NCBI RefSeq assembly: GCF_003945325.1
Contig: NZ_AP019307.1
Coordinates: 434,001-498,000, forward strand
Source: Nocardioides baekrokdamisoli
GTDB lineage: Bacteria; Actinomycetota; Actinomycetes; Propionibacteriales; Nocardioidaceae
Length of the DNA: 64,000 nt
Reading direction: 5' to 3'
The notes under the pieces are model-generated. The model saw only the letters and a program-made list of their open reading frames with translations. It did not search any database and was not told the origin of the DNA. This document shows positions 6,219-51,115 of this stretch, piece after piece. Position numbers and translations under genes: made by a program. Position 1 is the stretch's first letter; every line of letters begins with the position of its first letter.

Positions 6219-7378
6219 TGCGTGCCGTCGTGTGTCATCAGTCTGAACTCACCGTCGAGAACCTGCCGGACCCGGTCCCAGGTCGTGGCCAGATCCTGGT
6301 GCGTACGCTCCGCGCCGGTATCTGCGGATCCGACCTGCACATGCGCCACCACAGCGACGAGATGGCCGAACTGATGGCTCAGGTCGGGTACGACACCGGG
6401 ATCCGTCCCGAGCAGCACGTGGTCATGGGGCACGAGTTCGTCGCCGAGGTGGTCGCGTACGGTCCCGGTTGCCGCAAGCCCTGGAAGCCGGGAACTCGCG
6501 TCGTGTCTGTCCCGATGACGCGGGACGAGGACGGTGTCCACATGATCGGGTACGACGAGGCCAGCCCGGGCGCGTACGGCGATCTGTTCCTCGTCCATGA
6601 GGACTTCACCTTCGAGGTGCCGGACTCGGTGAGCACCGATGACGCCGCCTTCACCGAGCCCCTGGCCGTCGGTTGGCATGCCGTACGCCGCGGACAGGTG
6701 GGCCGTGGCCAGAGCGCTGTGGTGATCGGCTGCGGCCCGATCGGTCTCGCGGTGATCCTGATGCTCAAGGCGCAGGGCGTACGCCACGTCGTGGCCTCGG
6801 ACTTCTCTCCCGCCCGTCGCGACCTGGCTCGCGAGTGCGGCGCGGACATCGTGGTCGACCCGCGCGACTCCTCGCCCTGGGATCACATCAAGGTGCCGGC
6901 CGCGATGCGGTCGGTGCCAGAGCTCGCCGACTGGGGATTCGCGGCGATGTCCAAGGTGCGCCGGGTGCCGATGCTGCCGTGGGAGCGGCTCATCCGCGTC
7001 GGTGAGCTGGCCGGCGCCTCCCCCTCGGGCCCGGTGGTCTTCGAGTGTGTCGGTGTCCCGGGGGTGCTCAGCGAGATCATCGATGCGGTCCCGATGCGTT
7101 CACGCGTGGTGGTCGTCGGTGTCTGCATGCAGCCCGACACGTACCGTCCGGCGATGGCGATCCAGAAGGAGACCGAACTTCGGTATGTCTTCGCCTACGA
7201 CCCGGGTGAGTTCGCCGACACGCTCCGGATGCTGGCTGCGAAGAAGGTCGACCCCCGACCGCTGCATACCGCCACTGTGGGACTCGACGGCGTTGCCGCA
7301 GCCTTCGACGCCCTGCGAGACCCCGAACGTCACGCCAAGATCCTCGTTGACCCCACCCTGAGCGGAGCCGAACTATGA
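6218..7378 (+). CDS. zinc-dependent medium-chain alcohol dehydrogenase
   Basis: This 386-residue MDR-family dehydrogenase probably oxidises an alcohol with NAD(P)+. The catalytic zinc ligands are visible as Cys36 in GICGSDLH and His72-Glu73 in GHEF. The nucleotide-binding motif is VIGCGPIGLAV near residue 170. The four-cysteine structural zinc lobe of classical alcohol dehydrogenases is absent between Glu73 and the GAYGDLFLV segment. Start is GTG at 6218. Its stop overlaps the mini-catalase start by four bases (ATGA), so the two are co-translated. With an alkane hydroxylase 1.5 kb away it may act on long-chain alcohols, but the substrate is not shown by sequence. Confidence 0.9.
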   Translation: MRAVVCHQSELTVENLPDPVPGRGQILVRTLRAGICGSDLHMRHHSDEMAELMAQVGYDTGIRPEQHVVMGHEFVAEVVAYGPGCRKPWKPGTRVVSVPMTRDEDGVHMIGYDEASPGAYGDLFLVHEDFTFEVPDSVSTDDAAFTEPLAVGWHAVRRGQVGRGQSAVVIGCGPIGLAVILMLKAQGVRHVVASDFSPARRDLARECGADIVVDPRDSSPWDHIKVPAAMRSVPELADWGFAAMSKVRRVPMLPWERLIRVGELAGASPSGPVVFECVGVPGVLSEIIDAVPMRSRVVVVGVCMQPDTYRPAMAIQKETELRYVFAYDPGEFADTLRMLAAKKVDPRPLHTATVGLDGVAAAFDALRDPERHAKILVDPTLSGAEL

Positions 7379-8259
7379 CCGACGCCACCACCGCCGACGC
7401 TCGCCTGCGCCGGGCCTTCCACGCGAGCGGCCCGCACCGGACGCTCCACGCCAAGGGCACGTACGCCTCCGGCACCTTCACTGCCGCGCCGCGCTCGGCG
7501 GAGCTCGGCATCGCGGCGCATCTGCAGGGCTCCCCCGTTCCGGTACTGGTCCGGTTCTCCAACGGCAGCGGCAATCCGAAGTCACCCGACAAGGCACCGG
7601 ACGTACGTGGGATGTCGGTGTCGTTCAGGACCGAGACGGGCGCCACCGATCTGCTCGGCCAGACCGCGCCGCGGTTCCCGGTGAAGGACCCCGGGAAGTT
7701 CGTCGAGATGACCGAAGCCGTGGCGGCGCACTCCAAGCCGTGGAAGCTCGCCGCCTTCCTGGCCAGGAACCCCAGCGTCCTCGGCCCTCTGGCCGCCAAC
7801 GCGAAAGCCGGCGCCATCAAGCCGCCGAAGTCGTTCGCGGAGGCGACGTACTACCCCGTGCACGCGTACGCCTGGATCGCCCCCGACGGCAGCCGGCGTT
7901 GGGTGCGTTACATCTGGCGTCCGGTCGATGCGGCTGCTGCGGCGACGCCGACCGGAGCCAACTGGCTGGTCGAGGAACTGGCCACCCGTCTGTCCGCCGG
8001 TCCGGCCCGTTGGGACCTCGAGGTGTCGGTCGCCTCCGAGTCCGATGACCCGCACGATCCGACGTCGCAGTGGAAGCCTGTCGAGACCTTCATCGCGGGC
8101 ACGCTGAGCGTTGATGCCACGGCCCCGGACCCGGAGGCCGACGGCTCGATCATCGTCTTCGACCCGACCCGGATCATCCCCGGGATCGAACTGTCGAACG
8201 ACCCGATCCTGCTCTTCCGCGCCGCTGCGTACTCCGCCTCGGCCAGTCACCGCGCCTAG
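7375..8259 (+). CDS. mini-catalase / catalase-related heme peroxidase
   Basis: This 294-residue protein is a short heme enzyme of the catalase superfamily (SrpA-like), about 60 percent the length of a standard catalase. The distal histidine sits in HAKG (His25), the VRFSNGSG segment is typical of the family, and the proximal heme ligand is Tyr286 in RAAAY (R-x3-Y). No signal peptide is seen. Such short forms usually act as peroxidases with an organic donor. It overlaps the dehydrogenase stop, which suggests that peroxide or peroxide-driven oxidation accompanies that reaction. Two copies of a 22-bp repeat begin one base after its stop codon. Confidence 0.88.
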   Translation: MTDATTADARLRRAFHASGPHRTLHAKGTYASGTFTAAPRSAELGIAAHLQGSPVPVLVRFSNGSGNPKSPDKAPDVRGMSVSFRTETGATDLLGQTAPRFPVKDPGKFVEMTEAVAAHSKPWKLAAFLARNPSVLGPLAANAKAGAIKPPKSFAEATYYPVHAYAWIAPDGSRRWVRYIWRPVDAAAAATPTGANWLVEELATRLSAGPARWDLEVSVASESDDPHDPTSQWKPVETFIAGTLSVDATAPDPEADGSIIVFDPTRIIPGIELSNDPILLFRAAAYSASASHRA

Positions 8260-9095
8260 CGCCGAGACCCGACGTTCGGCAGGCCGAGACCCGGCGTTCG
8301 GCGCAACATCGCCCCGATCAGCGTCCCGCCCAGGATGACCCCGCTCATGCACCACACCTCGACGAGCAGCGCGAAGCTCGCCGCGACCAGACCGTAATCG
8401 TTCACGTCCTCGGCGATCTGTGACGAGGCCACGACCTGCGTCACCATCGACAGCAGCATCAGGCCAACGCCGGTCAGCAGGCTCCCCGGCGCCAGCGCGC
8501 GCCACGACACCCGGCCCAGCAGCAGGAACCGCTGCGTCCACCAGATGAAGATCACCGAGCCGATACCGAGACCCAACGGGGCGATCAGACCGGTGATCGC
8601 CGGGGTCGGGTGGACCTTCTGCAACAACGTCGCCAGCCTGATCGACAAGGTGAAGAACGGAATGAGTGCGAGCACCCACAGCACTTGACGCCAAGCCTGC
8701 TTGAACGGTGCCTTCGGGAGGTGCCAGAAGATCTCAAGACACCGCTGCAGGGTGGCTGACGCCCCGGTTGCAAAGGCGATGCCCACCAGCAGGCCGAGGA
8801 ACTGAGACCCCGTGTCGGCGGTCGCGCTGGTGAGGAACAACTGCGTGACATCCGCGCGTGCCGAGCCGTGCAGACCGAAGAGTTCGGTGAGCAGACTCAT
8901 CAGGTCGGCGTGCCGGAACCGGTGCACCAGAGCCGCGGCTGCGACCAGCACCGGCGCGGCGGACAGTGCGAACTGTGCGGTGAGCGCGAGCGTACGCGTC
9001 CCCAGATCCGACCGGGCGTACTCGCGGGCGAACAACCGCAGGTCACGGCGTACGCGCCGAACCACGGCCTGGTCCGAGTGCAGCTCGATCACCAC
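8256..9095 (-). CDS. YihY/BrkB-family inner membrane protein
   Basis: This integral membrane protein of about 279 residues has six or so hydrophobic segments (for example TLALTAQFALSAAPVLVAAA and the late LVAASFALLVEVWCMSGVI). It matches the YihY/UPF0761 family, whose function is unsettled. I placed the start at a GTG at 9095 because earlier in-frame starts (up to 9254) would run into the divergent Cds1-like gene; a GTG at 9092 is equally possible. Its last 15 or so codons are written by the 22-bp intergenic repeat, giving the tail RRTPGLGLPNVGSRR, so the C-terminus is probably a recent extension. Its stop codon overlaps the catalase stop on the other strand. Confidence 0.82.
   Translation of the reverse strand: MVIELHSDQAVVRRVRRDLRLFAREYARSDLGTRTLALTAQFALSAAPVLVAAAALVHRFRHADLMSLLTELFGLHGSARADVTQLFLTSATADTGSQFLGLLVGIAFATGASATLQRCLEIFWHLPKAPFKQAWRQVLWVLALIPFFTLSIRLATLLQKVHPTPAITGLIAPLGLGIGSVIFIWWTQRFLLLGRVSWRALAPGSLLTGVGLMLLSMVTQVVASSQIAEDVNDYGLVAASFALLVEVWCMSGVILGGTLIGAMLRRTPGLGLPNVGSRR
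8261..8304. repeat. two tandem 22-bp repeat units
   Basis: Two adjacent 22-base units (8261-8282 and 8283-8304) share the core GCCGAGACCCGRCGTTCGGC. The first begins one base after the mini-catalase TAG. The same core occurs at 37420-37630, where it forms a larger inverted array and again begins one base after a TAG. The units overlap the coding end of the YihY-type gene on the minus strand. Confidence 0.8.
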
Positions 9096-48060: not shown

Positions 48061-49128
48061 TCAGTACGAGTAGAAGCCCTGGCCGGTCTTGCGACCGAGC
48101 TCTCCAGCCTCGACCTTGGCGATGAGGGTCTTGGCCGGCTCGAAGTCGGCGTCACCGAACGTCTCGAAGAGCTCCTTCTCGATCGCGAGCGAGACGTCGT
48201 TGCCGACCACATCGAGCAGCGCGAACGGGCCCATCGGGAACCCGGCCTGCTCCTTGATCGCCGCGTCGATCTCCTCCATCGAGGCCTGGCCCGACTCGAG
48301 CAGCTTGATCGCGTCGTTGAGGTAAGGGAAGAGCAGGCAGTTCACGATGAACCCGGAGCGGTCGCCACAGGAGACGGCGACCTTGCCGATGTTGGCACAC
48401 AGAGCCAGAACGGTCTCGTTGACGTCGGCGGAGGTCTGCTCGGTCGTGACGACCTCGACCAGCTTCATGATCGTCGCCGGGTTGAAGAAGTGCATGCCGA
48501 TGACCGACTCGGGACGCGAGGTGACCTCGCCGAGCTTCGTGATCGGCATCGACGACGTCGTGGTCGCCAGGATCGCGCCCGGCTTGCAGATGCGGTCGAG
48601 GTCCTTGTAGAGCTCGGTCTTGATCGCCAGGTCCTCGGCGATCGCCTCGACGACGATGTCCACGTCTGCGAGCGCCTCGCGCTCGCTGGAGCCGGTCAGG
48701 CGGCCGAGGACGTCCGACTTGGCGTTCTCGTCGATCTTGCCCTTCTCGATCAGCTTGTCGAGGCCCTTGGTGATGCTGGCGATGACGCCGTTGATCTTGT
48801 CCTCGCCGCGGCCGACGAACACCACGTCGTACCCGGCCTGGGCGAAGACCTGGATCATGCCGCTGGCCATGGTGCCGGTGCCCACGACACCGACCTTGGT
48901 GATCTCGATCTTGAACTCGGGGGCGGTGGCCTCGCCGGCCGCCTCGGCCGGGGTGAACAATCCACGCTCCTGCGCGACCGTCATCGGGCCCTTCGGGTAC
49001 CCACAACCGAAGCGCATTCCGTTGTCGATGTCGACGGCGGAGGCGTAGCCGGCGGAGTGCATCCGCAGCGCGTGCTGGAGGTACGGGAGGACGAGGGTGT
49101 CGTGAATCTGCTCGTTGCTCAGGGTCAT
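48061..49128 (-). CDS. 3-hydroxybutyryl-CoA dehydrogenase with an extra N-terminal module
   Basis: This 355-residue enzyme oxidises or forms 3-hydroxyacyl-CoA. The NAD fold begins at about residue 77 ([13 protein letters not shown]), followed by [16 protein letters not shown] and the C-terminal domain ([30 protein letters not shown]). The first 65 residues are unusual: [21 protein letters not shown] and GYPKGPM copy the pattern of that C-terminal domain, so the protein is arranged as partial C-domain, NAD domain, C-domain. It probably serves acetoacetyl-CoA reduction in the ethylmalonyl-CoA route or beta-oxidation. It diverges from nucS with 40 bases between starts. Confidence 0.92.
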
Positions 49129-49168: not shown

Positions 49169-49852
49169 GTGAGACTCGTGGTGGCGACCTGTCAGGTGGA
49201 TTACGCGGGGCGGCTCAGCGCGCACCTTCCGATGGCCACCCGCGTCCTGATGATCAAGGCGGACGGGTCCGTTCTGGTGCACTCAGACGGGGGCTCGTAC
49301 AAGCCGCTGAACTGGATGTCTCCCCCGTGCACGCTGCGCGAAGGTCTGACCGAGGACGGGCGTACGGAGTGGGTGGTGACGTCCAAGACGGACGACACGC
49401 TCCGGATCACGATCGAGGAGATCCACCACGAGTCGGCGCATGATCTCGGCGTCGACCCGGGCCTGCAGAAGGACGGAGTCGAGAAGCACCTCCAGGAGCT
49501 GCTGGCCGATCATCCGGCGACCTTGTCCGACGGTCTGACCCTGGTACGGCGCGAGTTCCCGACAGCGATCGGGCCGGTCGACCTGATGTGCCGTGACGCC
49601 GAGGGCCTCTCGGTTGCAGTCGAGATCAAGCGCCGCGGGGACATCGACGGTGTGGAGCAGCTCACCCGCTATCTGGAGTTGTTGAACCGCGATCCCCTGC
49701 TCACCGGCAAGGGCACCGTCCGCGGCATCTTCGCGGCCCAGGAGATCAAGCCGCAAGCCCGCGTACTCGCCGAGGACCGCGGGATCGCGTGCGCGGTTGT
49801 GGACTACGACGCGTTGCGCGGACTGGACGACCCGACCGAGCGCTTGTTCTAA
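49169..49852 (+). CDS. nucS: mismatch endonuclease EndoMS/NucS
   Basis: This 227-residue endonuclease performs non-canonical mismatch repair in actinobacteria that lack MutS/MutL. The start [12 protein letters not shown], the [11 protein letters not shown] segment and the RecB-like nuclease core ([19 protein letters not shown], then EQLTRYLE) are all present, with catalytic Asp, Glu and Lys. The C-terminus DDPTERLF is where the clamp-binding motif would lie. Start GTG at 49169. The last 204 bases recur 511 bases downstream. Confidence 0.96.
49649..49852 (+). repeat. 204-bp direct repeat, copy 1 (3' end of nucS)
   Basis: This is the final 68 codons of nucS, from GGTGTGGAGCAG to the stop. Copy 2 is at 50160-50363. 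The copies differ at 15 positions: 14 synonymous changes and TAA versus TGA. Identity drops at once on the 5' side of both copies. Confidence 0.95.
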
Positions 49853-49861
49853 GGTCGAATC

Positions 49862-50131
49862 GTGGAAGCAGAACTCGACGCCCAAGGCTTGACGCTTCGC
49901 CTGTCGCACCAAGAGGCTCTGTTGCTCGGAATCTCCGTCAGGGCTGGCTACGAGACTGTTTCGCAAGCCGAGTACTACATCAGACATGGGTTGTCGGAAC
50001 CCGCCATGGAACATCTCGCTGCCTTCCTGATCGGAGCAGGCGAGGCACCACCGACCTCGGTCGAGATCCCCATCGAACCTGGTGTCGAAGAGGTCGAGAA
50101 TCCTCGACGACCTCGGCCCGGCCGTGCCTGA
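49862..50131 (+). CDS. small protein of unknown function inside the nucS duplication
   Basis: This 89-residue reading frame starts at GTG 49862, nine bases after the nucS stop, with AAGG seven bases upstream. The first 60 residues look like a compact helical domain ([39 protein letters not shown]). The tail is acidic, then Arg/Pro-rich. I do not recognise the family. It lies wholly between the two copies of the nucS 3' end, so it probably arrived with, or was trapped by, that rearrangement. Confidence 0.62.
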
Positions 50132-50159
50132 CATAGCGGCGTGTTTCGACTGCACAAAG

Positions 50160-50363
50160 GGTGTGGAGCAGCTCACCCGCTATCTGGAACTGTTGAACCG
50201 CGATCCCCTGCTCACCGGCAAGGGCACGGTGCGTGGCATCTTCGCGGCCCAGGAGATCAAGCCGCAGGCCCGCGTACTCGCCGAGGACCGCGGGATCGCC
50301 TGTGCGGTCGTGGACTACGACGCGTTGCGCGGTCTGGATGATCCGACCGAGCGGCTGTTCTGA
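50160..50363 (+). pseudogene. duplicated 3' third of nucS (copy 2)
   Basis: This region encodes the last 67 residues of NucS with an identical amino-acid sequence, but the upstream two thirds of the gene are missing. It contains the [13 protein letters not shown] motif but lacks the first catalytic residues, so it cannot be a working nuclease alone. An in-frame GTG at 50082 could give a 93-residue protein with a foreign start ([12 protein letters not shown]). The absence of amino-acid changes argues against simple decay of an old duplicate. Confidence 0.85.
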
Positions 50364-50522
50364 AGCGTCAGGCCCCCCAGGGTCCGGCGGCGGCGACACC
50401 GTGCGGCCAGATGATCTCCACACCCCGCGGAACCGGGCGCGATCTCCACAAGGACCAGCAATCGGCTGGCGAGTCGCGAACTAACCTGCCTAGGGTGACT
50501 TCTCGAGACCGAAGGAGTTCAC

Positions 50523-50783
50523 ATGGCGCTCAGCAACGCTGATCTCACCCGCAAGACCAACAACCTTGCGGAGACACTCGGGTACGTCCAGGACGGCGTG
50601 GATGCACTGCGAGTCGACATGAGGCGTCAGGGTCGCAGCATCAGGCGCCTGGAGGTGGACGTCGCGGAACTCAAGACCGACGTTGCCGAACTCAAGACCG
50701 GGGTGACCCACCTCAGCGTCGGTATGGCCTCGGTCGGGTCGAAGATCGACGAAGTCCTCCGACGACTCCCCGAGGCAGGATGA
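50523..50783 (+). CDS. small coiled-coil protein
   Basis: This 86-residue protein starts at ATG 50523 behind GAAGGAG. It is mostly one amphipathic helix with a repeated heptad pair (VDVAELKTDVAELKTGV), so it probably forms a dimeric or trimeric coiled coil. The sequence pattern resembles small tail-like or scaffold coiled coils found widely in bacteria. No function is recognised. Its stop overlaps the DUF952 gene start by four bases. Confidence 0.72.
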   Translation: MALSNADLTRKTNNLAETLGYVQDGVDALRVDMRRQGRSIRRLEVDVAELKTDVAELKTGVTHLSVGMASVGSKIDEVLRRLPEAG

Positions 50784-51115
50784 GGATCTTTCACATCGCT
50801 ACGTCGGCGGATTGGGCGGCGGCGCAGAAATGCGGTGTCTACACGCGCTCGACCTTGGCCCGGTCACTGGCCGAGGAGGGCTTCATCCATGCCGCCTACT
50901 CCTCCCAGTGGCCGAAGGTGCTCGCCCGTCACTTCGTGGGCGTCTATGAGCCACTTGTACTGCTGGAAGTCGACACCGGCCGCCTCACCAGCGTGGTGAT
51001 CGAGGAGCAGCCGGTCCCAGGATCCGAGATGATCTGTCCGCACATCTACGGACCGCTCAACCTGGACGCGGTCGTCAGCATCAGTGACGTCACCCGCCCA
51101 GAGGAGTACGTGTGA
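50780..51115 (+). CDS. DUF952 family protein
   Basis: This 111-residue cytoplasmic protein matches the DUF952 pattern: an opening FHIAT, the core FIHAAYSSQWPKVLARHF, then LLEVDTGRL and the late CPHIYGPLNLDAVV. The biochemical role of this family is not established. It is the middle gene of a three-gene run, with four-base overlaps to the coiled-coil and ArsC-like genes. Confidence 0.88.
   Translation: MRIFHIATSADWAAAQKCGVYTRSTLARSLAEEGFIHAAYSSQWPKVLARHFVGVYEPLVLLEVDTGRLTSVVIEEQPVPGSEMICPHIYGPLNLDAVVSISDVTRPEEYV

Follow-up and report, generated by a model that had tools for sequence, protein, structure and literature searches.

Several kinds of mobile element enter the 3' end of a host gene and restore it, among them e14 and phage 21 in icd and SCC in rlmH. 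Others, such as pseudo-SCC, CIMEs and integrase-less integron arrays, have no recombinase of their own. Here we describe a locus at nucS, the actinobacterial mismatch-repair endonuclease gene. As with e14, phage 21 and SCC, the 3' end of a housekeeping gene appears to have been replaced by a near-identical copy, with the old end left at the far junction; in contrast to them, the element found here measures about 0.5-3.8 kb, holds mostly one cargo gene and has no recombinase that we could see. As with pseudo-SCC, CIMEs and integrase-less arrays, it is att-bounded DNA that would depend on an enzyme from elsewhere, whereas its distinguishing parts are a presumed serine-integrase attP half-site and a restoring gene end, at nucS.

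The serine integrases of the A118/LI, Bxb1 and phiC31 type resemble the enzyme encountered in this work in their Resolvase, Recombinase and zinc-ribbon domains and in their use of inverted arms around a two-base core. They also share the displacement, described in parts of PMC3783163, whereby the zinc-domain motif is read 5 bp nearer the centre in attB than in attP; the same parts of that paper report that these enzymes recombine attP with attB only, unless a further factor is present. What differs here is the target, nucS, and that the phage brings a 3' end which would restore its target gene. The nearest precedent found for a repair gene as an attachment site is SpyCI, a phage-like element at an attachment site in the mismatch-repair gene mutL of Streptococcus pyogenes. 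SpyCI is reported to enter the mutL 5' end and to control repair, whereas at nucS the gene regains its 3' end and remains open. Searches of the open-access literature, excluding supplements, turned up no description of nucS as an attachment site or of cassettes like these, and nucS occurs 0 times in the main texts of PMC10083194, PMC10023795 and PMC10654092.

Our comparison of sequences indicates that phages most likely use nucS as an attachment site. More specifically, it is probable, though well short of certain, that nucS acts as attB for phages with large serine integrases and that the locus described below holds a miniature insertion of 511 bp that was moved in trans and restores NucS. 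The window, the whole stretch of 64,000 nucleotides that was analysed, is part of a 2.97-Mb single-contig genome (G000). In it nucS, which ends at 49852, is followed by a 9-nt gap, an 89-aa ORF, a second nucS 3' end, a coiled-coil ORF and a DUF952 gene, as follows.

49169..49852, plus strand: nucS ORF with PF01939 (NucS_C) and PF21003 (NucS_N), its reading frame running on through the presumed incoming 3' end; the GTG start at 49169 was picked by eye against the matches of other genomes, the ORF itself opening at 49115.
49628..49671, plus strand: attB-like site in nucS, AAGCGCCG - 13 nt - GG (49649-49650) - 13 nt - ACCCGCTA.
49649..49650, plus strand: presumed left crossover dinucleotide GG, placed by the in-frame junctions of two other genomes, G060 and G132.
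49651..49852, plus strand: upstream copy of the nucS 3' end, presumed to be the incoming one and to restore NucS, as G191, G060 and other cases and the synonymous-only pattern suggest.
49862..50131, plus strand: cargo gene (ORF) of 89 aa, with a GTG start 9 nt past the nucS stop; no family match.
50134..50141, plus strand: phage-type P arm TAGCGGCG, 18 nt before the right core GG; a phage contig has AAGCGGCG at equal spacing.
50160..50161, plus strand: presumed right crossover dinucleotide GG.
50160..50363, plus strand: orphan copy of the nucS 3' end, interpreted as the native one after displacement, with the coiled-coil ORF and the DUF952 gene after it.
50523-50783, plus strand: coiled-coil ORF.
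50780-51115, plus strand: DUF952 gene (PF06108).

An earlier note on this DNA had described a 204-base copy of the nucS 3' end lying 511 bases downstream, with 14 synonymous changes, a changed stop codon and identical encoded residues. Its count and coordinates proved correct in a repeat search (49649-49850 against 50160-50361; 202 nt, 93% identity, spacing 511), and a BLASTN comparison of the nucS 3' end with the DNA that follows it gave E = 7e-86. Base by base, 49649-49852 and 50160-50363 differ at 15 positions, each in a codon of its own; 14 of these codons are synonymous, the remaining one is the stop (TAA/TGA), and no amino acid is altered. Single-base changes placed at random here would be synonymous with a chance of 0.25-0.28, and an all-synonymous set under neutral drift has p of about 1e-9 to 6e-9 when the stop change is counted as synonymous. 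Since drift would so rarely give this result, the two copies appear to have diverged while both were under selection within a NucS.

The same arrangement recurs with different cargo in other actinobacteria. Eleven genomes have an intact nucS, then cargo, then an orphan nucS 3' end that starts at the same codon; G241 is a twelfth, rearranged relative, whose history is more complex because another gene separates nucS from a partial copy. When the 215 genomes of the window's genus were searched with a 66-aa nucS 3' end as query, two matches were obtained in 8 genomes, and the insertion is present in seven (G000, G060, G085, G132, G165, G191 and G195). A search of the family (341 genomes) yielded three more, G221, G224 and G241, all in a second genus (49 genomes), and a class-wide sample (394 genomes) contributed two real cases in other families, G347 and G447, with the same junction as the rest. 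From core to core, the window's insertion spans 511 bp and that of G347 about 3.8 kb. Several other candidates fell outside the twelve: G189 has a single nucS gene (G189:C1:3618892-3619093), which appears frameshifted in a genome that is 70% complete and reflects either a real loss or a sequencing error; the second match in G120 is not a nucS 3' end; and the two matches in G264, like those in G495, lie on different contigs.

Across 143 oriented nucS loci, an orphan 3' end was detected in 10 (nhmmer E <= 2e-12), the next match having E 0.079 on the other strand; the profile was built from the nucS 3' ends of these same loci, and worn copies below the threshold escape it. In the nine of these 10 loci whose match covers the 5' part of the tail, the orphan starts at profile positions 8-15. 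DUF952 lies less than 100 nt from the nucS stop at 54 of the 143 loci, while 50 have longer gaps, which were left out of the insertion count because most of them hold genes with no orphan 3' end. WapI-like genes sit right behind nucS in G107, G095 and G075, where no orphan 3' end was detected; these are possibly old cassettes from which it has disappeared. A pattern scan of the genome collection returned 18 stretches, three of them nucS cases already counted (L070, L076 and L079) and 15 with no nucS match. A genus-wide scan for the right-end motif, run with a pattern one N too long, matched 76 of 209 genomes, by eye not above the control.

The link to phages comes from IMG/VR, which was searched with a profile of seven nucS 3' ends. 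One of 36 pattern matches was confirmed, the 39-kb contig L232, whose first 18.6 kb were analysed. Here a large serine integrase gene (469 aa, 6825-8234, minus strand; PF00239, PF07508 and PF13408; PHROG 95, E 1.6e-106) adjoins a nucS 3' end, and genes for phage tail, distal tail and recombination functions lie nearby. Between the nucS 3' end and the integrase, at 8272-8325, lies a presumed attP, AAGCGGCG-N18-GG-N18-CACCGCTA. The phage 3' end bears a leader (GSFVKEGTARHWAVEVKRRAGIDAVEQL), as do those of G060, G132 and G347. It is closest to the 3' end of G347 (rank 1 of 138), which is also the nearest to it, narrowly (score 270 against 267); the G060 and G132 3' ends each have the other as nearest neighbour, and the phage ranks 74th for G060 and 50th for G132. 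No further contigs of this type were found in IMG/VR. In the GenBank phage set, nucS appears in three fecal 'phage' records, only as whole genes and with no lone 3' ends. The plasmid set gave two nucS hits, and a plasmid record of Tsukamurella tyrosinosolvens has an annotated nucS (NZ_LR134452.1, 357789-357977). We also noted a related IMG/VR integrase, L251 (60% identity), with no nucS match in the stretch analysed.

The earlier note had proposed looking for genomes with an integrase between nucS and the 3'-end copy. None was seen in the bacterial loci, but the phage contig has a serine integrase gene next to its nucS 3' end. No integrase was detected in the insertions themselves, as judged from ORF lists and, for some cargo, Pfam, and the 511-bp element of the window consists of one cargo ORF; it thus has no integrase of its own, such as an autonomous prophage or integrative element would carry. 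Elsewhere in the genomes, serine integrase matches were present in 6 of the 13 searched (the twelve cases and a further genome, G240), with no nucS match near them at the 9 loci tested out of 10 retrieved. One of these enzymes belongs to the window genome (L242; G000:C1:1121438-1122745), is 468 aa long and is 37% identical to that of the phage over nearly its full length; it lies about 0.64 Mb from the window's nucS, and the surrounding 4.3 kb contain no nucS match. The sequence AAGCGGAA occurs shortly before its start codon.

The arms around the presumed cores are arranged as published for serine integrases. In nucS, the left arm 13 bases from GG reads AAGCGCCG at 71 of 143 loci and AAGCGGCG at 49 (120 of 143 for either), and the right arm at the same distance is TAGCGGGT (reverse complement) at 109, the form that the window also has. 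The arms are inverted in both the presumed attP and the presumed attB, and the change from N18 in the phage to N13 in nucS amounts to 5 bp, matching the attP/attB rule in the parts of PMC3783163 that state it; compared with the enzyme described there, the arms here lie a few bases further out. Since the arms coincide with the codons K-R-R and T-R-Y, which are conserved for protein reasons, nucS would offer a steady target. The two-base core GG is common to nucS, the phage and the right junctions, its position in G347 being ambiguous by two bases.

At the right ends of the cassettes, the phage octamer placed at a single offset matches 72 of 96 positions in the twelve cases. Composition-preserving shuffles gave 27.8 +/- 4.4 matches, and 0 of 20,000 reached 72; per site, the predicted offset averages 6.0 and other offsets at most 3.58. 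All eight positions match in G191 and G132, seven in G060, G000 and G447, six in G221, G195 and G241, and five in G085 and G224, scores of five being weak when taken singly. G165 (4/8) and G347 (3/8) do not fit; for G347 the core was set two bases past the strict register, in which it would score 1 and the total would be 70. At the two flanks, then, a P arm matching at least 5 of 8 positions is seen at 10 of the 12 right ends, and a left junction with a phage-like leader in three of the 12, the window not among them.

These three left junctions bear on which 3' end is the newcomer. In G060, G132 and G347 an in-frame NucS leader stands at the junction codon, for example IDG/SYATGAARHVAVEIKRKANIDAVEQL (the slash marking the junction), and this extra peptide marks the upstream 3' end as the newcomer in these genomes. 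Apart from the phage's, the only 3' ends with alanine after I-D are the three of the leader type (3 of 138); the 8 of 143 loci that were unparsed for this residue read G by eye. The phage P' arm at its exact spacing was seen only in the phage itself; by eye it is at N15 in G060, unclear in G132 and weak in G347. Nearest neighbours at the DNA level point the same way in G191, where the nucS body (best match 89%) shares its nearest relatives with the orphan (91-93%), whereas the upstream 3' end is best matched (84%) in a genome ranked 86th for the body, and identity to the best body relative drops across the core from 30/30 to 16/30. The pattern in G060 agrees in part with that of G191; in G085 and G132 the upstream 3' ends are foreign and the orphans ambiguous; in G165, G195, G221 and G224 the upstream 3' ends resemble their own lineage. 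From these cases, the upstream copy in the window genome would likewise be the newcomer.

The remaining nine of the twelve insertions, the window's included (G241 uncertain), have neither leader nor phage P' arm. Their left junction is B plus B', with a host-type 3' end directly after the core. As known serine integrases pair only attP with attB when no further factor is present, these nine insertions need a further step, either a leader that was lost or exchanged or sites that paired in an unusual way. They may be insertions that were modified, or what is left of prophages.

Taken together, the comparative data support the first alternative in the earlier note, an element that enters the nucS 3' end and restores it: the same junction occurs in 11 genomes, several incoming 3' ends are foreign, most right ends have a phage-type arm, and on a phage contig a serine integrase gene adjoins a nucS 3' end. 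Under the mechanism we propose, a phage that encodes a large serine integrase has, within its attP region, a nucS 3' end, and integration at the codons I-D-G/V would exchange the host 3' end for that of the phage, so that NucS is still made and the host's own 3' end stays as an orphan at the far side. The window insertion, between the GG cores at 49649-50 and 50160-61, would consist of the newly arrived 3' end of nucS, followed by a single cargo gene and the attP P arm; as it lacks an integrase, it would have depended for its movement on one supplied in trans by a phage. Expression of the cargo gene would come from the nucS transcript; a search of 49800-50560 for sigma-70-like promoters and terminator-like sites found none.

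The 89-aa cargo protein of the window has no match in Pfam, NCBIfam, PADLOC or PHROGs, and its best relative within the genus (145 genomes searched) is 41% identical, in G103. That relative (L039) has a PT-HINT/DUF4258 protein and a DUF2283 protein encoded nearby. The cargo of the other insertions is as follows.

G060: 193 aa, opposite strand.
G132, G221 and G241: a shared 141-aa family.
G085, G191 and G447: a shared 88-aa family.
G165: WapI-like immunity protein, E 2e-32.
G195: DUF2750 piece, E 3e-6.
G347: SNF2/SWIM helicase, 1106 aa.
G224: an ORF on the minus strand.

A second ORF lies inside the insertions of G191 and G447. Searches of plasmids with two of the cargo families gave no match. 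Going by the G103 neighbourhood and the WapI-like protein of G165, an immunity- or defence-like role of the cargo is plausible.

The cargo also bears on the first of the competing explanations, that the small insertions are remnants of full prophages which entered nucS by their own serine integrase and of which the rest was deleted, so that nothing small ever moved. A phage such as L232 would leave exactly both ends seen here and has its integrase gene beside the P arm, and the orphan copies in G165, G195 and G221 have decayed. However, the cargo starts 9-14 nt past the nucS stop in 6 of the 12 cases (G000, G085, G132, G165, G221 and G447), a spacing hardly expected from many separate deletions, and two cargo families recur at nucS in different hosts and genera. 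Seven cargo proteins had no match (tblastn, E <= 0.01) in the 18.6 kb analysed of the 39-kb L232. In addition, a relative of the G085 cargo is found in G240 (L234) behind a gene of the metallo-beta-lactamase fold, a metallo-hydrolase whose 3' end is repeated 719 bases further on, past the cargo relative (L234 1394-1507 and 2113-2226; 87% over 77 nt), which points to target genes besides nucS. We consider the derivation from whole prophages unlikely, while giving it real weight.

A second explanation accepts an old serine-integrase insertion and supposes that homologous recombination with the nucS of a sister lineage later swapped the upstream 3' end and removed the leader. This would account for the nine left junctions without a P' arm and for their host-type glycine after I-D, and two lineages, both under selection for NucS, could yield the synonymous-only differences of the window. 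Against it, the break between native and foreign DNA in G191 falls at the core, inside one 30-nt window, where a longer foreign tract would be usual; a crossover within the conserved last 30 nt before the core would nevertheless still fit that genome. On balance such a later exchange seems improbable to us.

Local duplication of the nucS 3' end, with a gene inserted between the copies afterwards, was the outcome that the earlier note would have favoured if both copies grouped together apart from all relatives. In the window they do so: the upstream and orphan copies are each other's nearest among the genomes compared (93% to each other against about 85% to other genomes), which goes against an element, but because the comparison set holds no close relative this grouping says little for the window genome. 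The 14 synonymous codon changes with zero amino-acid changes, together with the attachment motif, speak against local duplication on the evidence of the DNA, as do the same junction elsewhere, with the end motif at 5/8 or better in 9 of 11 other genomes, and the foreign upstream 3' ends in G191, G060, G132 and G085; we regard it as very improbable. Readings as an integron-type cassette array, which promoterless single genes behind one expressed gene resemble, or as a diversity-generating retroelement, which a 3' end with a downstream copy resembles, are scarcely credible and were dropped, since a pair of boxes like those of integron attC (R'', RYYYAAC; R', GTTRRRY) occurs in 0 of 12 right ends, and since, where such retroelements have a reverse transcriptase and make adenine-specific amino-acid changes, the differences here are synonymous, with 3 of 15 at adenines of the upstream copy, and the cargo proteins run against Pfam (from some inserts) gave no reverse transcriptase match.

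We thus return to a restoring insertion moved in trans by a phage integrase as the preferred reading. Beyond nucS, we put forward more tentatively, as something that may well turn out otherwise, that actinobacteria harbour a class of integron-like cassettes based on serine integrases, each comprising mostly one gene with a spare host-gene 3' end and one attP arm. Phage integrases would act on them in trans, and they would enter nucS and other genes, such as the metallo-hydrolase gene of G240, without breaking them, placing immunity-like genes behind a host promoter. The analysis proposes nucS as a phage attachment site and supplies a predicted attP/attB pair and an integrase that are directly testable and might serve as an integration tool for actinobacteria. 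It suggests a route by which single genes may come into a genome with no integrase of their own and leave their target unbroken. It also raises the question of whether swapping the end of the NucS C-terminal domain alters the mutation rate, as SpyCI is reported to do via mutL.
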